NCBI GenBank assembly: GCA_900323505.1
Contig: OOIN01000011.1
Coordinates: forward strand, 496,001 to 560,000
Reading direction: 5' to 3'
DNA length: 64,000 nt
Source of the DNA: Ustilago trichophora
Lineage: Eukaryota > Basidiomycota > Ustilaginomycetes > Ustilaginales > Ustilaginaceae
Below, in pieces: positions 1,122 through 14,096 of this stretch. The notes under the pieces were generated by a model, which was not told where the DNA came from, did not search any database, and was given only the letters and a program-made list of their open reading frames with translations. The translations under genes and the position numbers were made by a program. The number at the start of each line of letters is the position of its first letter. Position 1 is the stretch's first letter.

Positions 1122-3687
1122 GTTGGACCAAGTGAAGGTACGCAAGGAATCCGATGGGAAGCGATGACGAAGAGCAACCCTACTTTGCGGCTGCTAGAGA
1201 AGGTGATCTATTGTATTCTCGTGACTGAAGATGGTGGAAGGTGCAAAGGGTCAGAAGTGGTTGAGGCCAAGTGAAGCTGAGTCCGGATCGAATTTTAAGA
1301 ATGTCGACTTTGAGAAAGACTGACCGCCGCGCCGGCATGATCTTCGGTGAATTCTGGTTTAGAGCTCCTTTCTTCTCTTGCCACACAAATCCAAAATACA
1401 CACCACACAAGACAAGGTTGGCTGACGAATCATGGCGAGGCCATTTGAAAATCAAAAAAAAGGTGTGAGATTGTTCCGGAAGTCACGTTTTAGGCTTGAT
1501 TTTTCTAGCCTCAATTTGCTTGAATGCATTTTGTGCACACCTTGTCAGGTCTCGAGATTCGTGTGTGGAAGTGGACCATGTTTGACCACGTTGACGATCT
1601 TTTGTTGATCATGTGCTGACCTCGCAAAGAATCCTGAATCCATGGCTGGTATGCCACATATCAACAGACAGACCCATCATTGCCGCTGAACGAACTCACT
1701 CCCCTACCTCGCTGTCAGAGTATCATGTCGACCGAGCCTTTCGCCGCGACAATGTCGACTCAACATGAAGCATTTTCAAGGTCCGGTTCTCTTTGATGCT
1801 CAGCGAGAAGCACTTATGGTAGCATAGCTCCAGTCTCTCTCTCAGCTCAAGGTCAATCGACCTTTGAGTACCCACATCCCCGTGACCTTGACGCTGCCCG
1901 GGCCGACCCAATCTCCCACACCGCTTTGAGTCGGTGGCAGCCAGATCGCCGATGCTCAAAACATGAACGCAGATGATCTCAAGTCGTGCCCACAGGTCCA
2001 GTCTGAAGCTGTCGAGGAAGAAGAACAAACCGCCGCATGAACGTCAACAACGAATGGCACTGGTTCCACATGAGATCGACAAAGTCTCTCCACCAGATTC
2101 CAAGTGACAGTATCGGCACTGTACGTATATCAACAACAAATGACCAAGCTTTCACGACCTCAACTATCACGAACGACAATCTTACTCAACTCGACCAAGT
2201 CTTCATACCATGTTGGCGCAACCTTGGTCACGTGACATCGGTTCGTGGAGAGGCACATGATGAGCAACGAGGGGATTGCTTCCAATGCTGAACGAGCCTA
2301 ACCCGATTTGAAGCTTGGCCAAGAAGCCCGGCGATGAATGGTAAGCGGAGTTAACCAACGGGTCGACGCGGGAAATGAAAAAAAGGCTTTCGTCGTTGGT
2401 TATCATCTCGGATCAGATAATTTTGCAGCCAATCAATCCTAAAAAATCCAACCTGAATCAAGGGCACACTACAGTACTCTATCTCGTTTTCCGGCATGGC
2501 ACACTCGCTCACGCCCACGCCCACGCTCATGCGTCTCACTATATTTTGTGTGTTTGTGGCGGATGATGGGGCCTATCAGATTCGGCGGATCAAAGTCGAC
2601 AGCCGATGGTTTACCGCTTCGAAGCTTATGCAAAAAAGGCGGCTTCTGCCAAAAATGGCTCCTTCCGATTGGTTGACCTTTTCCAACCAACGGCGAACAG
2701 AGACAAGAATGGCGAAATGGCGAATGGAGCTGATCATGTCCGTCCAAACTCTCGGCGTGAAAATCGGCAAATTTGGCTCGACGAGATGGATTGCTGATAA
2801 CAGACCTTCTTCTTTTTCTCCATTTTGCGTGACTCGCGTGTGTCGCTGCTTCTACGAATTTCATATTTTCGACGATTTTGTGTTGAAAGCGGGTTGCGCC
2901 GAGATTCCTTCCTCGTCGCCCGTTTCTTCTTAAGGAGCTTGTGCGGAAATCAAGGGCAGGCGACGTCAGATATTGATCAGAATAAAAGTCACCGATTGGA
3001 CCCCATTCTTCTTCTGCAATCCTTATCTCTTGTTGCCAATCAACGAATCACGTATCGCCATCTGGCTTCCCACTTTGCCTTGCTCTCCACCTTGATCTTT
3101 CTGGCTTCCGCATGCTCACACTCGTGGTGACGGTGTGTGAGAGTGGCGGCCAAGTTTCCGCTTCCTTCCGTTGACCCCGGTTTTGAAATGATTGATGAGC
3201 ACACGACGCTGTCGTAATCGGCCTAATCTCTACCTTGTTCGCCTGCCATTTCCGCTACCAGCCATCGCTATTCTTCAAGATGGTTGGCTGGTCGCTCGAA
3301 TCTGCCAGTGAGCGGGGACTCCAGGTGACTCACACTCACACTCATTCTCGTTTCTTGATGTTGAGCTAATTCGGTGTCTCTCGGATCCAACCGCGGGTGC
3401 CCTCCACCTTTGCAGAGACGTGGACACCAGCGCATACAGTAGAAGCCGTCTTCTCAGCCTGTCTCGGTAATCCATAGTTGGTGGAGCCAAAATTCTTCTC
3501 ATCGATACCACTGCAATGAGGAGTTCCACTAGGCCCTTCCGAATCTGAGCCCTTGAGGATGCTATAAAGACCTTACTCTCCATCCCATTCCCTCTTCGCC
3601 TCTTGCTCGGCCTCTAGACGTTTATACTTTCTTCCTTCTCACAACCCCCTCTTTCTTAAGACGCATCACATCACATAACACATAACA
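1122..3687. other. Intergenic region between divergent NAR1 and GDH genes
   Basis: About 2.6 kb of non-coding sequence separates two divergently transcribed genes. Short open frames (for example 2496-2933 +, 145 codons) have no recognisable domain and no clear splice partners, so I do not call a gene. It contains a short CACGCC-type tandem at about 2507-2529, two copies of the heptamer TACAGTA (2470, 3435), a GATA-factor type CTTATC at 3022-3027, and a TATA box close to the GDH start. Confidence 0.6.
3563..3569 (+). promoter_or_regulatory. TATA box of the NADP-GDH gene
   Basis: TATAAAG lies 119 bp upstream of the GDH ATG. It is followed by a pyrimidine-rich leader (about 3585-3660), the usual layout of a strongly expressed fungal gene. 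Position and sequence are seen; use as a TATA box is inferred. Confidence 0.55.
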
Positions 3688-5052
3688 ATGTCGAACCTCC
3701 CCTCCGAGCCCGAGTTCGAGCAAGCTCTCAACGAGCTCTCCACCACCCTCGCACCCTTCCTCGAGCAGTACCCCGAGTACAACAAAGCTTTCGAGATCAT
3801 CCAGATTCCCGAGCGCATCATCCAGTTCCGCGTCGTTTGGGAGGATGACAACCACGTTGCTCACGTCAACCGTGGCTACCGTGTTCAGTTCAACTCTGCC
3901 CTTGGTCCTTACAAGGGTGGATTGCGTCTGCACGAGACTGTCAACCTCTCGGTCCTCAAATTCCTTGGCTTTGAGCAGATCTTCAAGAACGCCCTCACCG
4001 GACTCAACATTGGCGGTGGTAAAGGTGGCAGTGACTTCAACCCCAAGGGTAAGAGCGATGCCGAGGTGCGACGATTCTGCAAGGCTTTCGCCACCGAGCT
4101 GCAGAGGCACATTGGTCCCAACACGGATGTTCCTGCCGGTGACATTGGCTTCTCGACCCGAGAGGCTGGATTCGTCTTTGGTACATACAAGCAGCTCAGG
4201 AACGAATGGACCGGTGTCATCACGGGCAAGGCAATGGACTGGGGAGGAAGCAACATTCGACCCGAGGCCACTGGTTACGGTTTGATCTACTACGTCGAGC
4301 ACATGATCAACCACGTCGAGCAGGGCAGCAACGGATTCAAGGGCAAGAAGGTCGTCATTTCCGGTTCGGGCAACGTCGCCCAGTACGCGGCGCTCAAGGT
4401 GCTCGAACTTGGCGGTACCGTTCTCTCCCTGTCAGACTCCAAGGGCTCCCTCATCGCCAAGGACGGCAAGGGATTCACCGCCGAGATGATCCACAAGATT
4501 GCCGAGATCAAGTACAACCGTGGTGAGCTCTCTGCCTTTGGCAACGCTTCTGGCTCTCTCGAGTTCCACGAGGGTTCTCGACCCTGGACTCTGGTCTCCT
4601 CTTACGACGTCGCTCTTCCCTGCGCCACCCAGAACGAGCTCAACGACGAAGAGGCAAAGGCTGCCCTCGCCGCTGGCTGCCGCTACGTTGCCGAAGGATC
4701 CAACATGGGTTTGACGCAATCTGCCATCGACGTCTTTGAAAACTCGCGTCTCACCTCGTCGTCTCCATGCTGGTATGGTCCCGGCAAAGCCGCCAACTCG
4801 GGTGGAGTCGCGGTCAGCGGATTGGAGATGGCACAGAACTCGGCCCGTCTCACATGGAGCCACGAGGAGGTTGACCAGAAACTCAAGGATATCATGAAGA
4901 ACGCTTACGACAACTGCTTCAGCACCGGCCAAAAGTTCCCCGCAAAGGACGACAAGGTGGCAGAAAAGCTGCCCAGCTTGGTCGGAGGCGCCAACATTGC
5001 AGGTTTCAAGAAGGTCGCCGATGCCATGCGACAGCACGGCGACTGGTTCTAG
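3688..5052 (+). CDS. GDH1: NADP-specific glutamate dehydrogenase
   Basis: A 454-residue intronless protein, the normal length of the hexameric fungal NADP-dependent enzyme. It catalyses reductive amination of 2-oxoglutarate with ammonium to glutamate and is the main cytosolic route of ammonium assimilation. Visible signatures: the glutamate-binding stretch GPYKGGLRLH with Lys76; the catalytic region NIGGGKGGSDFNPKGKSD with Lys112; PAGDIGFSTREAGFVFG with Asp152; then the Rossmann dinucleotide domain with VVISGSGNVAQYAALK at about 222-237. The ATG is preceded by AACA, a good fungal context, and a TATA box lies 119 bp upstream. It is convergent with the MLRQ gene downstream (406 bp between stops). 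GATA-type CTTATC at 3022 would fit nitrogen control, but a single short site is weak evidence. Confidence 0.97.
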   Translation: MSNLPSEPEFEQALNELSTTLAPFLEQYPEYNKAFEIIQIPERIIQFRVVWEDDNHVAHVNRGYRVQFNSALGPYKGGLRLHETVNLSVLKFLGFEQIFKNALTGLNIGGGKGGSDFNPKGKSDAEVRRFCKAFATELQRHIGPNTDVPAGDIGFSTREAGFVFGTYKQLRNEWTGVITGKAMDWGGSNIRPEATGYGLIYYVEHMINHVEQGSNGFKGKKVVISGSGNVAQYAALKVLELGGTVLSLSDSKGSLIAKDGKGFTAEMIHKIAEIKYNRGELSAFGNASGSLEFHEGSRPWTLVSSYDVALPCATQNELNDEEAKAALAAGCRYVAEGSNMGLTQSAIDVFENSRLTSSSPCWYGPGKAANSGGVAVSGLEMAQNSARLTWSHEEVDQKLKDIMKNAYDNCFSTGQKFPAKDDKVAEKLPSLVGGANIAGFKKVADAMRQHGDWF

Positions 5053-7067: not shown

Positions 7068-7997
7068 GGATAGGCGATTCCGTGCAATCATGTTGTGGTT
7101 GCATTGCTTCGAAGACCGTCTTTCTTATGGTGTCTCGTCCGCTTATCGTCATAATCATGATCCTCAGTCATTCTAGAGACGCTGCCGATTGGCTGCTCTT
7201 CCGATATGGAGTAGCCCCTGAATGACGATGAAGAGGCTGGCGAGGACGAGAGATGCCGAGAATGATTGATGTGAATGCGTGTGCAGAGATGCAGCGCATG
7301 CGTGTATGGGTGCCGTGTCGGAGTGTCTGCATGTGCATGTGCTTTCAGAAGAAAGAGAGAAAAAAACCAACACTTTGCTGGGAATGCAATCCAAGCACAA
7401 CCACGGATCAGTCGAACATCTTTGATACGATCAAAATCGAGAAGAGAGGGATGGGAGAGAGGTGGTGTTGTAGTTGGCTGTTTTGTGTTTCAAAGAATTT
7501 CTGGCTGGGGTTGCTGTGACGTCGAAAAGATGCCAAGCTGTGTTGTGGTGTGGTGCGGTGTGTGCAGTGCATATTTCCAACGCTCGGATCATCCGTCCGA
7601 ACAAGCACAGCCTGCCACTTTTCGTGCACCTTCTCCTCTTGTCCTTCTCCTATTTGCTTGTATGCAGCATCGCCATCTGCCTTGTCAAGGTTGTGGTTGC
7701 CAGCACGGCTCATCTCTCCTCTTCAACCATCACATCGATATCGACTCTGCAAGCTTGGCTCGCTTGGGCCCTTTTCCCGGTAACAAAGACGCTGCACACG
7801 AACTCTGTTGCACGCTTAAAGACCACCATCACTCGGCGCATCGCTCCATCCGACAGCGCCTCACTCCACCCTCTTCCTCACCATCCGACACTCACCCTGC
7901 TGCCATCGTCTCTTGACTTGTCCGGGTAACCTACACAGCTTCTTCACACATCGTTGACACCATCACTTCGTCTGTGGCTTGTGGAAACCCTCCAACC
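6332..7997. other. Intergenic region between MLRQ and PSD genes
   Basis: 1.67 kb of divergent promoter sequence. It contains a (CA)n microsatellite (7024-7066), one TACTGTA heptamer (6974) and, from about 7600, a C/T-rich stretch that is probably the leader of the PSD mRNA. Open frames of 100-210 codons at 7275-7929 overlap one another in several frames, have no family features, and are judged spurious. Confidence 0.55.
7024..7066. repeat. (CA)n dinucleotide microsatellite
   Basis: An uninterrupted CA tract of 43 bp in the intergenic region upstream of the PSD gene. Simple repeats of this kind are length-variable between strains. Confidence 0.97.
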
Positions 7998-10900
7998 ATG
8001 GCATCGCACGGGCACACCAACACGACTCCGCCATCCCCGCCGCCAGGGTCTTCTTCGTCCACAACATCCTCAGCGCCACTATGCACCTTGCGCGTCCAAG
8101 TCCTCTCGGCCAGGAATCTAGCTGCCAAGGATAGGAATGGCAAGTCAGACCCCTTTGTCATTGTCAGCTTGCCCGGCTCAGCTGCCTCCTCCCATCATGC
8201 CGCTGCACCTCATTCACATACCACTGTCAAGTCAAAGACACTCGACCCGGTCTGGAAATCCGATGAGGCTACCTTCGACTTTCCCGTCTTTCCCGATTGG
8301 TTCGGTCCTCACTTTGCCGCCGTAGCCAGCGACGACATTGACTCGAGCGTCGTTCGTGCCGCCATTCAGCATGCTGTTGCCGACGCCAGCGCCCAAGCTG
8401 ATTCCACCCATCTCTCTCCAGATGCTGCTACCAAACCTCGTCCTCGTCTCGGTCTCCGTTCCGCTTCCACCAAAAAGATCTCGGGGGCTGCTTCCAAGAT
8501 CCTCGTCGCTCCCGTCAAACTCGGCGCTGCAGGTGCACGTGTGGTGGGCAGACAAATGCCCCGTCCCATGCGTCTTCGTCGACGAGCTCGTCCCTCTTCC
8601 TCTTCCCTCCCAACAGATTCTCTACCCTTGTCTAACTCCAGCGCCGCCCTCGACGCAAAACCGCCCCGCGGCTCTATCCAGCTCGACGCTTCTAATGGCA
8701 TGGTTTCGTCGCTCGAGTTTGTCATCTGGGATAAAGATCGCTTCTCTGGCAACGACTACATGGGCGAATGCTCACTTCCTGTAGCTCAATGGTGCAGAGA
8801 TGGCTTTGCTGAATGGTCAAAAGCTCAATCGCTCTGGTTGCCTGTAGAGTCTTCTCATCCCGATGCAAAGATCAGCGGCGAGTTGCAGGTCAAGATTGGC
8901 TTCGTTCCAACATCATCTTTCCCAGCTACCCAACAGCCCAAACCTGCCTCTGGTCCACGATCCTGGGCCGTCGACGAGGTCTATAACCGGCTTGTGCTGG
9001 CTGCGCTCGGCACTCAGGGCGCTGCCGTTCGTGCCATTCCCGCCTCCCAGTCGGTCGGTACAACCGCTGCTGCAGAAGCCTTTGTCGATGATGGACTGAG
9101 TAGCGACAGCGAAGACGAAGATGATGATGACGACGACGACGAGGATGATGATGACGATGATCTCGCCACCTCGGAAGGCGAACCCGGCGACCTCAACGAC
9201 GCCCTCGAGTTTGATTCTGACGACGAAGGCGTCTATGACCAGCACTACCAAACCATTGCTGGCGTCCCTGCATCGCCTCCTCAGGCTGCAGGCACCTCCC
9301 AGCCTAGCGGTACATTGCTCACACCACCACCTCAGCAGCAGTCCGGTGGCAAATTTGGACGCATCTTTTCTCGCAACAAAAGTCTCAAGTCTGCACAAAC
9401 TTCGGGCGCTGCCACACCCTTCGACGCAAGCGCATCTGATTTTGACCCTTCACGAGCCAGCACACCTGCCGAGTCGGTCGCCGCCACCGGTGCCAAGCCA
9501 CGTATAAGACGCCGCCTGCCTGGCGTCAAGCGTCTCAAGCAGAACGCTGCTCTGCCTCCATCTGCCGCTCATCTCGATGCGACAGCTGCTGCTGTAGCCC
9601 CATCGGCTCCTCTCCGCGCCAAACGACGTGGCGCAAAGCGACGCAATCGTGGCGAGTTTGCCTTCAAGGCCGAAATGGGCATGGACATCATCGGCATTGT
9701 CATGATGGAAGTCAAAGGCGCATCCGACTTGCCGCGATGGTCCAACATGACTCACACCGGTTTCGACATGGATCCTTTCGCCATCATCAGTTTCGGTCAA
9801 AAGATCTTCCGAACCCGAGTCGCCCGTCACACCTTAAACCCAACTTGGAACGAGAAGCTGCTCTTCCACGTCCGCAGACATGAGACCAACTTCCAGACCA
9901 AATTCATGATCTACGACTGGGACCGCATGTCGTCCAACGACTACGTGGGAGGTGCACAGATCTCGATTGCGGATCTGTTAGATGTGGCACCCAAGCCTGA
10001 TCCTCAGACTGGTCTGTACAAAGCGGATGAGGAAGGCATTCTGGGCTCGATGAAGGAGTTCGTCTTGCCACTTTCCCGTGTCGAGAAGGACGAGGAGGTC
10101 AAATTCAAGCGCACCAACAAGCACCCTGCGCTCACGATTCAGGCCAAGTTTACCCCCTACGATGCGCTCCGTCAGCGATTCTGGCGACAACTGGCACAGC
10201 AGTTTGACACCAACGACAGCGGTACGCTTTCGCGTCTCGAGCTCTCTAGCATGCTCGATAGCTTGGGAAGTACGCTCAGCACAACGACGCTCGACGGCTT
10301 CTTCTTCCAGGTCAATAAGAACCCCGAAGAGGACGAGCTGACATTTGAAGAAACCATTGTCGCGCTTGAAGCTGAAGTGCAAAAGCCATGGGATCTCAAG
10401 AGGAAGGCAGCACACGCAACGTCCAGCTTCAACAGCGGTACACATACCCCCGCGCTTGGCGGCGTAGGAGATATCGGAACTGATCTGAATCAGGACATGG
10501 ATTTTAGTGGAGCTGATGCATATAGTGCACACGGGTCTACAGATGGCCGACCTGTGCCGCCCGCCACCACAGCATCCGGTAACAGCAGCGGTGACGTCCC
10601 TGGAGCGAGCATGACAAACTCGGGCGGAATGATGCGGACCCTCGACCGCGACTTTTCCGCTTTGTCGATGACCTCTTCTACCGACTCGTCATCCAATGTT
10701 GGCGGCGCCCATCCTCTCAAACCCCGCAGTGCATCTGGATCGAGCTCCGGCATGCTCTCCACCTCGCCGACACCACCGCTTATTAACATTGAAGGCGAAT
10801 CGTCCTCCTACGAAGATGCCTCCACTCCCGAGCGCGTGGTTCGGCTGCAATCCTGTCCACTCTGTCACATGCCCCGTCTCCACAAGAAGGGCGAGATGGA

Positions 10901-11990
10901 CATCATCACCCACCTCGCCGTCTGCGCTTCGCAGGACTGGCGCCGAGTGGACAGTCTCACCGTCCGCAACTACGTCACTGCCTCTCAAGCACATCGCAAG
11001 TGGTACACCAAAGTGGTCAACAAGATCAGCCAAGGCAACTACTCTCTCGGTGCCAACAGCGCCAACATTATCGTCCAGGATCGCATTTCGGGAGAGCTGA
11101 TGGAGGAAAAGATGCAGGTCTACGTCCGCTTGGGCATCCGGCTGTTGTACCAGGGTGCCCGTTCCCGCATGGAGGGAGCCCGGGTCAAGCGCATGTTGAA
11201 GAACATGAGTGTCAAGCAAGGTGTCAAGTTTGACAGTCCAGCCTCGGCTCGAGAGATTCCGACATTCATCAGCTTCCACAACCTCGACACGGACGAGATC
11301 CGCGATCCACTGGACAGCTTCAAGACGTTCAACGAGTTCTTCTACCGCAAGTTGAAACCCGATGCGCGACCCAATGAGGAACCTGACAATGCGGGTAGAT
11401 TGGTCTCGGGGGCGGATTGTAGGATGATGGCGTTTGAGACCATCTCTGAAGCGACTAGGATTTGGATCAAAGGTCGAAATTTCTCCATTGCTCGCTTGCT
11501 CGGCGATGCCGTCGACCAGAAAGAGGCCAATGTCGAGGCGTACAGCGGCGGAGCACTGGCCATCTTCCGTTTGGCCCCACAGGATTACCACCGATTCCAC
11601 TGCCCCGCCGACGCCACCGTTGGCAAAGTGACGTGGATCACGGGTCAGTACTACACTGTTAATCCTATGGCCATTCGATCTGCTATCGATGTCTATGGCG
11701 AAAACATTCGCGTCGTTGTACCTTTCCACAGCGAACAGTTTGGCACATTCTACGCGGTCTGCATCGGAGCCATGATGGTGGGTAGCACCGTGCTCACCGT
11801 CAAAGAAGGTGAAAAGGTGCAGCGCGGACAGGAGTTTGGATACTTCAAGTTTGGAGGGAGCACCATTGTGCTCGTATTCGAAGAAGGGAGGGTGGTATGG
11901 GATCAGGATCTGGTGGATAATAGCAAAGCGGCGATCGAGACGCTCGTCAGGGTCGGGATGGGCATCGGGAGGGCCCAGGAGAAGGCATAG
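7998..11990 (+). CDS. PSD2: Phosphatidylserine decarboxylase, type II, with two C2 domains and EF-hand
   Basis: 1330 residues, intronless. The start is the ATG at 7998 (CAACCATGG, good context); the frame extends upstream only from a GTG. The enzyme converts phosphatidylserine to phosphatidylethanolamine in the endosome/Golgi. Order of domains: C2 domain 1 from about residue 30 (AKDRNGKSDPF, then WDKDRFSGNDYMGE after a basic low-complexity insert of roughly 110 residues); an acidic run coded at about 9105-9165; C2 domain 2 from about 561 (DMDPFAIISFG, YDWDRMSSNDYVGG); an EF-hand at about 736 (DTNDSGTLSRLE); a CPLC...H zinc-like segment; and the decarboxylase domain. The self-cleavage motif is GGST, with Ser1288 expected to become the pyruvoyl group; His1198 and His1201 lie in DYHRFHCP. 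Both C2 domains keep calcium-binding aspartates. The layout matches yeast Psd2 and its relatives. Confidence 0.93.
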   Translation: MASHGHTNTTPPSPPPGSSSSTTSSAPLCTLRVQVLSARNLAAKDRNGKSDPFVIVSLPGSAASSHHAAAPHSHTTVKSKTLDPVWKSDEATFDFPVFPDWFGPHFAAVASDDIDSSVVRAAIQHAVADASAQADSTHLSPDAATKPRPRLGLRSASTKKISGAASKILVAPVKLGAAGARVVGRQMPRPMRLRRRARPSSSSLPTDSLPLSNSSAALDAKPPRGSIQLDASNGMVSSLEFVIWDKDRFSGNDYMGECSLPVAQWCRDGFAEWSKAQSLWLPVESSHPDAKISGELQVKIGFVPTSSFPATQQPKPASGPRSWAVDEVYNRLVLAALGTQGAAVRAIPASQSVGTTAAAEAFVDDGLSSDSEDEDDDDDDDEDDDDDDLATSEGEPGDLNDALEFDSDDEGVYDQHYQTIAGVPASPPQAAGTSQPSGTLLTPPPQQQSGGKFGRIFSRNKSLKSAQTSGAATPFDASASDFDPSRASTPAESVAATGAKPRIRRRLPGVKRLKQNAALPPSAAHLDATAAAVAPSAPLRAKRRGAKRRNRGEFAFKAEMGMDIIGIVMMEVKGASDLPRWSNMTHTGFDMDPFAIISFGQKIFRTRVARHTLNPTWNEKLLFHVRRHETNFQTKFMIYDWDRMSSNDYVGGAQISIADLLDVAPKPDPQTGLYKADEEGILGSMKEFVLPLSRVEKDEEVKFKRTNKHPALTIQAKFTPYDALRQRFWRQLAQQFDTNDSGTLSRLELSSMLDSLGSTLSTTTLDGFFFQVNKNPEEDELTFEETIVALEAEVQKPWDLKRKAAHATSSFNSGTHTPALGGVGDIGTDLNQDMDFSGADAYSAHGSTDGRPVPPATTASGNSSGDVPGASMTNSGGMMRTLDRDFSALSMTSSTDSSSNVGGAHPLKPRSASGSSSGMLSTSPTPPLINIEGESSSYEDASTPERVVRLQSCPLCHMPRLHKKGEMDIITHLAVCASQDWRRVDSLTVRNYVTASQAHRKWYTKVVNKISQGNYSLGANSANIIVQDRISGELMEEKMQVYVRLGIRLLYQGARSRMEGARVKRMLKNMSVKQGVKFDSPASAREIPTFISFHNLDTDEIRDPLDSFKTFNEFFYRKLKPDARPNEEPDNAGRLVSGADCRMMAFETISEATRIWIKGRNFSIARLLGDAVDQKEANVEAYSGGALAIFRLAPQDYHRFHCPADATVGKVTWITGQYYTVNPMAIRSAIDVYGENIRVVVPFHSEQFGTFYAVCIGAMMVGSTVLTVKEGEKVQRGQEFGYFKFGGSTIVLVFEEGRVVWDQDLVDNSKAAIETLVRVGMGIGRAQEKA

Positions 11991-12122
11991 TGAAGCACAC
12001 GAGTCGTCTTGTTCAACGTCAATTTATAGCATCATACCTCATAACTTACAGACATTCAATGGAATCGCATCGCATCGCATCGCCTGTTCTCGAGCCTGAA
12101 CGAAATTCGGTTCGCATTCATT
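11991..12122. other. PSD 3' flank with short ATCGC repeat
   Basis: The 3' UTR of the PSD gene, including a short pentanucleotide tandem (CGCAT/ATCGC units, about 12065-12083), ends where the inverted-repeat element begins. Confidence 0.5.
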
Positions 12123-12186
12123 CATATCCTAAAAAAAGGAAAAATCCACCCCGGAGCCACCTCCTAGAGCCACCCCGGGTGGCTAC
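12122..12186 (+). repeat. Left terminal inverted repeat
   Basis: Pairs with 12533-12597. The outer 40 positions match except for about three changes; the inner part matches again over AGCCACCCCGGGTGGCT. The outermost T/A pair may belong to the target site rather than to the repeat. Confidence 0.85.
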
Positions 12187-12596
12187 ATTGCGAGGCCAGC
12201 TTTGGAGCCACCCCCGATTGGCTGGCTCCGCACCAGAGCCACCCTGAGTGGTCTAACATTCTAACAAAAAAAAACGAAAAATAAAAGAAAGGTTACCGGC
12301 AGGGGTCGAACCCTGACCTCCACCCAGACACGTGTCCGAAAATCTTCCCCTTTAACCGCTGTCCCACCTAGTCCACTTTTGAAAATTGATGGTTGACAGC
12401 AAACTATATGGACATTTATTTTCCAGATTTCACACAAAATTCTGAAAATTTTAAAGACAAAATTGCAAGATCCACCCCGGAGCCACCCAATGAAGCCACC
12501 TAGGGGAGGTGGCTCCGATGACGAGCCACCTTGCAGCCACCCGGGGTGGCTACGGGGGGTGGCTTCGAGGTGGATATTTCCTTTTTTTAGGATATG
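12123..12596. mobile_element. MITE-like element with about 65-bp terminal inverted repeats and tRNA-like core
   Basis: The outer ends are inverted copies of each other. The left end reads CATATCCTAAAAAAAGGAAA from 12123; the right end, read on the minus strand from 12596, gives the same 20 bases. Homology continues inward, with scattered mismatches, to about 12186 on the left and 12533 on the right, ending in a near-palindrome AGCCACCCCGGGTGGCT on both sides. Inside each end is an array of GAGCCACC/GGTGGCTC units. The middle holds a tRNA-like sequence (minus strand) and an AT-rich segment (12377-12470). ATT directly abuts both ends (12120-12122 and 12597-12599), a possible 3-bp target duplication. 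No open reading frame is present, so it would be non-autonomous. The structure is directly visible; mobility is inferred from it. Confidence 0.8.
12290..12376 (-). other. Degenerate class-II tRNA-like sequence with A and B boxes
   Basis: Read on the minus strand there is an A-box-like TGGGACAGCGG (12356-12366, one mismatch to the usual form) followed by GTTAA, and a B-box-like GGTTCGACCCC (12302-12312). The 54-nt spacing fits a Leu/Ser-type tRNA with a long variable arm. Oligo-T runs follow at 12290-12266, as in a pol III terminator. It does not fold as a working tRNA: the T-loop is one base short, the D-stem does not pair, and the ends do not form an acceptor stem. I therefore call it tRNA-derived or tRNA-like, not a tRNA gene. 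Confidence 0.6.
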
Positions 12597-12597
12597 A
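12533..12597 (-). repeat. Right terminal inverted repeat
   Basis: Inverted copy of 12122-12186; see the element entry. Runs of GGGTGGCT units lie just inside it. Confidence 0.85.
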
Positions 12598-12811
12598 TTG
12601 TAGAACTGAGCCGGTCGCAGGAAGCTGTTGCTGATCGCCCTCGGCCATCACAGGAGGGGGAAAAGGTTGGATCGCAGCCCATTGGTGGGAAACTTGCGGT
12701 TCGTTCCCTCGAGTAAAGGTGCGGATCCTTGACTTTGGGGGTATAAAATCTATTCCATTGCGCAAGAGAGATGTCGATATAACCTATTATCCGTTGATCG
12801 AGTGTATCAGC

Positions 12812-13583
12812 TTAGAAGCCTGCATTTGCAATAAAAGCCATTCAAAGTTGGGGGATCAGCGTACGATTCCACTTATCCAGTCTGACAGCATCCTGGAATG
12901 GTCTGTGGCTGGCGTTGGATGTTTTTGGAATACTTACAGCACTGACAATCGAACGGACAATCTGGCGTATCTCCCCCTTGGCCCAATTTTAACTCTTCTG
13001 CCGTGAAGATTCGTAATCCATCTTCGGTTCTTTTCCTCGTTGTACCTCTGCTATCTGTGAATTCGTCCAGATCGTCCGCTTGAACAGCAGCTGAAGATGG
13101 ACGTGAGGAAGAAGAGGATTTGGTCGAGGTTGGAAGGGTTGAAGGTGCAGTGTGAATTGGAATGGTGTTTGAGGTGTCGGTGATGATTTGAACCGCTCTA
13201 GATTTGGGTTTTTTGAGCTTTGCTTTGTCGGATTTGGTGTCTTTAGGGTTAGAGGCGGTGGAGGAGGAAGAAGTGACGATGGTGGATTCGGCTTCGGATC
13301 GCTTGCGCTTCTTCTCCTTCTTGGTCACCTCAGAGCTCGCCACAGCCTCATCCTTGGACATACTCTGCTTCTTTGAAACAGTCGACTTTAACCCCTCATC
13401 CACAGCTTTATCCTTCCCCTTACTCTTCCCCTTCTTGACCGCTTCGTTCGAGCCAGACACAGTGGCAGCGGTAGTAGAGGGCCCCGTAGAAAAGATATCA
13501 TCAATCTCGCTCATCCCACCCGATTTCTTCTTCGACGACCCCTGCGTCGTCGCTAACTTGTCCATGCTTGATTTTTTCGCCAT
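12812..13583 (-). CDS. DUF1764 family protein (2 exons, 8-nt last exon)
   Basis: Exon 1 is 12938-13583, starting at the ATG 13583-13581 (MAKKSSMDKLATTQ); exon 2 is only 12812-12819 (GC TTC TAA). The 118-bp intron has a GTAAGT donor and a GCAG acceptor. Splicing rebuilds the invariant family C-terminus, ending CPFDCQCCF; unspliced reading destroys it, which strongly supports the tiny exon. The 217-residue protein has a long lysine/serine-rich, probably disordered N-terminal half with KKEKKRKR-type basic runs, then the conserved module SRGTTRKRTEDGLRIFTAEEL and GGDTPDCPFDCQCC. The four-cysteine tail could bind metal. The basic composition would fit a nuclear or nucleolar protein, but the family has no established function that I know of. 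Confidence 0.85.
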
Positions 13584-14096
13584 GATTACCTCGCAAAACT
13601 CTGGCTTTTCTTGCAATCCCAATCCATTCGACCGACCTCGTGGAAATGAACGATGCGTGTCTTAACCGTTGGAGAAACAACTACGCAATGGTCCAAGGGG
13701 TGATTCAAGTACGGAGTGTGACTAAGGTGGTTGAACAGGAAGAAAAGGGTCGAGAGACAAAAAAGGAGCGGTCTCCTCCATACACGACACAAAAAAACAA
13801 AAACAAAAAATCGGGTTCAAAAGGCTCGGGATTCGGCCAACTACACATTCACACAAAACCTCCCTTGCCATCTTCGGCCGCACGTTCAAGGCAAGGATGG
13901 GAATGGATTGGACCCTCTTTCCCAAGGTGAATGCTGCGAATGGACTGGTATCAGACCATGTGAAGCTATCAATATTGATTCAGCCTGGTAGAATTTGAGG
14001 TGTGGTGTGAAGTGCCTTTGAGTCTCGATTAAATTGCTTGGAGAAGGGCATATCACCATCAAGCGACCAAGTTTTATCCATGTCAAGGCTGTGGTA
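13584..14096. other. Intergenic region between DUF1764 and TPR genes
   Basis: 513 bp upstream of the DUF1764 ATG and downstream of the TPR gene stop. A-rich around 13785-13815. No gene, tRNA or repeat recognised. Confidence 0.5.

Follow-up and report, generated by a model that had tools for sequence, protein, structure and literature searches.

The 474-bp inverted-repeat element at positions 12123-12596 of the window (the whole 64,000-nucleotide stretch of Ustilago trichophora contig OOIN01000011.1 that was analysed) is identified with high confidence as a MITE-like non-autonomous cut-and-paste transposon of a CACTA/EnSpm-like family, whose ends are common to elements of 12.7-12.9 kb. Membership as a non-autonomous, MITE-like element follows from the shared ends, the target site duplications and an empty site in the same genome. 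With a coding capacity of at most 157 codons and no overlapping open reading frame of 200 or more amino acids, the element is without a transposase of its own and, judging from sequence, was very probably moved in trans by the transposase of the large elements. Counting against this reading, the transposase of one family of large elements scores under the Pfam cut-off, the flanks differ in two of the 22 end pairs, only seven copies of the core were found, and internal deletion of the large elements does not account for that core. The family is apparently undescribed and its mechanism ordinary, the pol III-like core being the one unusual part. The open-licence PMC literature yielded no description of the family or of a CACTA-type MITE with a tRNA-like core, and the accessible portion of a study of U. 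hordei that used MITE and SINE finders makes no mention of CACTA or of trichophora (PMC9603552).

The element and its large relatives

The inverted arms of the element (12119-12187 and 12532-12600) are 69 nt long and 87% complementary, with 57 of the 65 terminal bases matched and the outermost 20 paired perfectly. Twelve AGCCACC/GGTGGCT units lie within the 474 bp, compared to 11 in the remaining 63.5 kb of the window (Table 1). The layout described in the original prediction, with ends inverted over about 65 bp and identical in their outer 20 bases, two enclosed repeat arrays and ATT abutting both ends, is therefore borne out. A phosphatidylserine decarboxylase/C2 frame (7974-11990, plus strand) has its stop codon 132 bp before the element, which is followed on its other side by a DUF1764 frame on the opposite strand (12873-13622, minus strand).

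Table 1. Positions of the element and its parts in the window
Feature	Position	Strand	Remarks
Complete non-autonomous (MITE-like) element	12123..12596	.	termini CATATCC..GGATATG; ends are copy boundaries; 472/474 identical to the C1 copy
Left terminal inverted repeat	12123..12187	+	outer 20 bp perfect
Right terminal inverted repeat	12532..12596	-	pairs with the left repeat
Left subterminal array	12155..12243	+	4 AGCCACC and 1 GGTGGCT; putative transposase-binding sites
Right subterminal array	12481..12564	+	AGCCACC four times, GGTGGCT three times; putative binding sites for the transposase
Target site duplication ATT, left copy	12120..12122	.	3-bp rule in 20/22 end pairs; empty site in C11
Target site duplication ATT, right copy	12597..12599	.	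3-bp rule; empty site in C11
Left-end segment common to the 12.7-12.9-kb elements	12123..12251	+	about 129-130 bp, 94.6% in 5/6; in C8 the first 62 bp only, 100%
Right-end segment common to the 12.7-12.9-kb elements	12464..12596	+	133 bp, 88.7-89.5% in 5/5
212-bp core	12252..12463	+	unmatched in the nine large elements examined; 7 loci, all beside the family's left end
tRNA-gene-like stretch	12290..12378	-	A/B box pair; no tRNA model match
A-box-like TGGGACAGCGG	12356..12366	-	one mismatch from the consensus used
B-box-like GGTTCGACCCC	12302..12312	-	one mismatch from the consensus used
T-runs TTTT, TTTTT and T9	12266..12286	-	immediately 3' of the tRNA-like stretch; candidate terminator for pol III

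Both ends are common to five large elements, four of which measure 12,658-12,891 bp (C15, C27, C6 and C8, named here by their contigs) and one 20,816 bp, with extra sequence inserted (C36). These five elements of 12.7-20.8 kb are the larger relatives, with the same ends and a transposase, that had been proposed as a check on the original prediction. A sixth element (C1) has the left end, with no matching right end in the 18.9 kb used. These elements are referred to as family A; the three large elements of family B (C31, C32 and C4; 11.5-19.3 kb) have related ends of 79-89% identity. At E 0.01 the 212-bp core, which lies between the two shared segments, is unmatched in all nine large elements of the two families, and a simple internal deletion of these elements therefore does not explain it.

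Two of the large elements (C36:443380-464195 and C32:360312-379613) are longer by some 7-8 kb and contain extra open frames (1777 and 1658 codons); the additions are probably nested insertions of other elements. Separately, the minus strand of the family A elements includes, at about 1.6-3.5 kb from their left end (for example, 2142-4103 of the fetched stretch L009), a stretch of 1.74 kb or more with 97.8-98.7% identity to an NST1 (salt tolerance down-regulator) gene. The presumed host NST1 gene lies at C42:1156600-1158339, inside an open frame of 1689 codons, and the NST1-like copy in family B has 84-91% identity. It looks as if the large elements captured part of this host gene, perhaps on two occasions, and the fragment offers a natural case for the study of gene capture by transposons.

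A Pfam scan of one copy per family identified Transposase_21 (tnp2, PF02992) in the long frame of family B (C4) at E 1.9e-7 and 30.9 bits, over the cut-off of 28.6, and in that of family A (C8) at E 3.1e-5 and 23.7 bits, under the cut-off; a relative in Sporisorium graminicola scores 35.2 bits, likewise over the cut-off. Among eight aligned relatives the first D is conserved in seven, the second D in six and the E in all eight, accompanied by a C(2)C motif in seven and an H(3)H motif in all eight; by analogy with published motifs, the D, D and E would be the catalytic residues. Beside the transposase lies a second protein, the two forming five pairs with consecutive locus numbers (UTRI_00963/00964, 04616/04617, 05705/05706 and 10690/10691, and EX895_001529/001530 in Sporisorium graminicola). 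The second protein has no Pfam match over any cut-off and may be a TNPA-like partner. A PDB sequence search returned nothing relevant (five rows, E 0.28-0.76), and the predicted structure of the transposase was too poor for use (mean pLDDT 39.3).

These features resemble those of CACTA/EnSpm and its non-autonomous derivatives (dSpm-type elements and MITEs), which likewise combine a transposase of Tnp2 type, bearing C(2)C and H(3)H, with CA..TG ends and 3-bp target site duplications. In CACTA elements the subterminal repeats also form arrays of either orientation, and a partner protein accompanies the transposase; such arrays and a linked second protein are present here. The differences are that the ends are CATATCC..GGATATG, rather than CACTA or CAC..GTG, and that the transposase is distant from the Pfam model. 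The EnSpm elements of rust fungi, in the accessible part of a paper by Kojima, have CAC..GTG ends and 3-bp duplications, and DDE motifs with C(2)C and H(3-4)H ahead of the E, CA..TG ends and duplications of 2-5 bp are there described as common to the CMCT group (PMC12730594). The same portion of that paper gives PlavakaB, of a fungal CMCT lineage, as having CATCA..TGATG ends and duplications of 2 or 3 bp (PMC12730594); PlavakaB is thus alike in its CA..TG ends and duplication length, but differs in its terminal sequence, and the Pfam Plavaka model scores 12.6 bits on the family A transposase (C8) against a cut-off of 26.3 and is absent from the listing for family B. Because CATATCC ends fit neither EnSpm nor PlavakaB exactly, the family is called EnSpm-like and not EnSpm proper.

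Copies, target sites and movement

A search of the 38.8-Mb assembly (45 contigs, C10 being that of the window copy) with the whole element returned at least 106 matches, and the terminal 19-mer occurs at 193 sites genome-wide with two or fewer mismatches, compared to none for a reversed-pattern control. Other copies start and stop at the identical base amid different flanks, so that the ends of the element are the boundaries of its copies, and these ends, with 3-bp duplications, are common to copies ranging from 75 bp to 20.8 kb. The core was found at seven loci, all of which adjoin the left end of the same transposon family; three copies are younger (C10, C1 and C45, 95-100% identity for the core; 97-100% alike) and four are older (C36a, C36b, C44 and C20, 78-82%). 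The C10 and C1 copies of the element differ at two of 474 bases, a near-identity that would point to recent movement, and the C45 copy differs from that of C10 by nine substitutions and three gap positions. In the C44 and C36b copies part of the left array is missing, and their right ends were not found in the stretches read around them.

The smallest element of this type (C26:57147-57221, 75 bp, flanked on both sides by AAA) consists of almost nothing beyond its two ends and some array units and is a possible candidate for the minimum substrate. At C20:17293-18082 lies a 790-bp relative in which several hundred extra bases interrupt the core, with ACT as its duplication. Diverged elements with ends of this type also lie crowded together, several within about 0.5-1.5 kb (C1 744638-745307; C2 745199-746653; C29 81717-82325; C31 149261-149803; C41 245515-246271), which suggests insertion into or beside earlier copies.

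Target site duplications were assessed in 22 pairs of adjacent convergent ends, taken from stretches picked by their similarity to the element. Identical 3-bp flanks are present in 20 of the 22, where chance would give 1.7% per pair, and are absent from two; 18 of the 20 read ANT, and the remaining two are GTT and AAA. The complete elements C20 (790 bp) and C36a (464 bp) also have 3-bp duplications and stand outside this count, because the search that found them required duplications.

An empty site can be read within the same genome. A counterpart contig, C11, has 92% identity to the left flank of the element over 1.1 kb, and once the element and one ATT are removed the flanks align without a gap across the joint (GCATTC-ATT-GTAGAA in the window and GCATTC-ACA-GCAGAA in C11). 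This indicates either insertion after the two contigs diverged or precise loss from one of them. The counterparts of the C45 and C1 copies, identified on C31 and C2 by homologous flanks, have no matching element; their joints are unreadable because the flanks are too diverged, and alignments across them are unreliable. The assembly itself is about twice the size of the 20.7 Mb given for other U. trichophora strains in the available portions of two reports (PMC4966473; PMC8951962), and window positions 11000-12083 are 8% diverged from C11:400949-402036; the assembly is perhaps diploid, dikaryotic or hybrid. The MITE of the original prediction is thus upheld by multiple copies, in place of single-copy status, by exact ends with a shared boundary base, by 3-bp duplications, by the empty site in the same genome and by the large elements that encode a transposase between matching ends.

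It is suggested that the transposase of a large element, perhaps with the linked second protein, would bind the subterminal GAGCCACC/GGTGGCTC units, as is proposed by analogy, and would pair the CATATCC ends. The transposase would then excise the 474-bp DNA, and insertion would leave a 3-bp duplication, mostly ANT. The middle 212 bp would be filler, perhaps from a pol III-type gene with its A box, B box and T-run, that rides with the ends and is dispensable for movement.

The pol III-like core

The A-like and B-like boxes on the minus strand of the core lie 43 bp apart, a spacing that is tRNA-like, and each is one mismatch from the consensus. The pair is the sole hit in the window, and eight hits occur in 40 random 64-kb sequences when both strands are searched; it arises in just 0.035% of 20,000 randomised cores and is therefore above chance. 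T-runs follow the B box in all seven aligned copies of the core.

Searches for a tRNA gene were negative. ARAGORN found none in the element at its default settings and, with lowered thresholds, made eight calls in the window and none in the element; at the lowest setting it made 397 calls, including one tRNA-Leu with a 114-base intron at 12291-12493 on the minus strand, which at such a setting is meaningless. There is no Rfam match in the element at the gathering threshold, and permissive scans of the element and five core loci (C36a, C44, C20, C36b and C45) produced no tRNA match, the weak miRNA and sRNA rows that they did produce falling far under the gathering scores of those families. Of the at least 60 tRNA genes listed for the genome, 36 were compared with the core; the best local score, 27, is higher than the single-gene 95th percentile of shuffled cores (22) but unremarkable against the best-of-all-genes shuffles (mean 23.8, maximum 37). 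No cloverleaf was seen in the RNA folds of four copies of the core, whose z values of -0.59 to 0.79 are no better than those of shuffles, and the consensus fold, with two-sided change in five of 35 pairs, does not have the shape of a tRNA. A true tRNA gene was rejected on the absence of a default ARAGORN gene, an Rfam tRNA match and a cloverleaf. Since the box pair is above chance but has no tRNA support, the core is described as pol III-like filler.

These results divide what the original prediction had offered for the middle of the element. The A and B boxes that it named were confirmed in the form of the A-like and B-like pair. Its MITE with a captured tRNA pseudogene holds for the MITE, and agrees with the box pair and the T-runs, but the tRNA part found neither a matching model, nor a clearly similar tRNA gene among the 36 compared, nor a fold better than shuffles. 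For its further suggestion that the stem of about 65 bp and the pol III core act together, no evidence was found.

Alternative readings of the core and their meaning

The foremost alternative, which we regard as quite possible although it is not the reading adopted, is that the pol III resemblance is accidental, the core being arbitrary filler in which A and B boxes arose by chance. The failure to find a tRNA model match, a clearly similar gene among the 36 tRNA genes compared or a cloverleaf favours this, as does the fact that the box search was made after the boxes had been named. In addition, in each of the four older copies the left end is better conserved than the tRNA-like part (in C36a, 112/128 compared to 72/88). 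Against an accident stand the rarity of the pair in randomised cores, the T-runs directly 3' of the B box and the fact that in three older copies (C44, C36b and C20, though not in C36a) the tRNA-like part is better conserved than the stretch of core on its right side, a comparison that is disturbed by deletions and an insertion. As far as these alignments go, the conservation of the core gives no clear support to selection on it.

An origin of the core in a further autonomous member of the family, one so far unseen that itself has a pol III-like stretch, is unlikely; the MITE would then be a plain internal-deletion derivative of that member. The core is old, to judge from its four older copies, and lies beside the left end of the family at every locus, while the C20 copy is longer and contains extra internal sequence, all of which favours such an origin. 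However, the genome search with the core gave only its seven loci, and none of the nine large elements read contains a match to it. The source of the core was not found in the genome, and no coding fragment was recognised in it. In this respect the element differs from Pack-TYPE and Pack-CACTA elements, which, in the accessible text of one account, are alike in having non-autonomous ends around sequence foreign to the parent element (PMC8903248).

A further view sees in the core an active pol III transcription unit, retained by a CACTA-like MITE during two or more waves of movement because its transcription helps the element, which would make the element a DNA-transposon counterpart of the Helenus- and SINE-type pol III parasites; this view is improbable. 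Under it, transcription would, for example, open chromatin for the transposase or steer insertions to permissive sites. Helenus, a TRIM with tRNA-like LTRs from rusts and some mushrooms, is, in the part of its description that is accessible, alike as a non-autonomous carrier of tRNA-like sequence, but it is an LTR retroelement with duplications of 4 or 5 bp, whereas the 474-bp element is a DNA transposon with terminal inverted repeats and 3-bp duplications (PMC10886601). A fold-back element, in which the 65-bp stem is the functional unit and is independent of the large elements, would account for the 69-nt complementary arms but is very improbable, since these arms also form the ends of the 12-kb elements, with a spacer of more than 12 kb. 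The weakest reading, a SINE-like retroelement moving through a pol III RNA, would explain the boxes and T-runs but is scarcely credible and was rejected: the element has terminal inverted repeats, CA..TG ends, 3-bp duplications and ends common to transposase-encoding elements, and the genome search found neither standalone tRNA-like copies of the core nor retroposed copies with a 3' tail and without terminal inverted repeats.

The non-autonomous, CACTA/EnSpm-like reading of the element thus describes a two-part transposon system in a smut fungus, in which large elements are accompanied by short passengers, with near-identical copies and an empty site that is readable within one genome. Should the pol III-like core prove to be transcribed, a pol III unit would be serving a DNA transposon as cargo or helper; should it be silent, the element would be a clear demonstration that A and B boxes by themselves can mislead.
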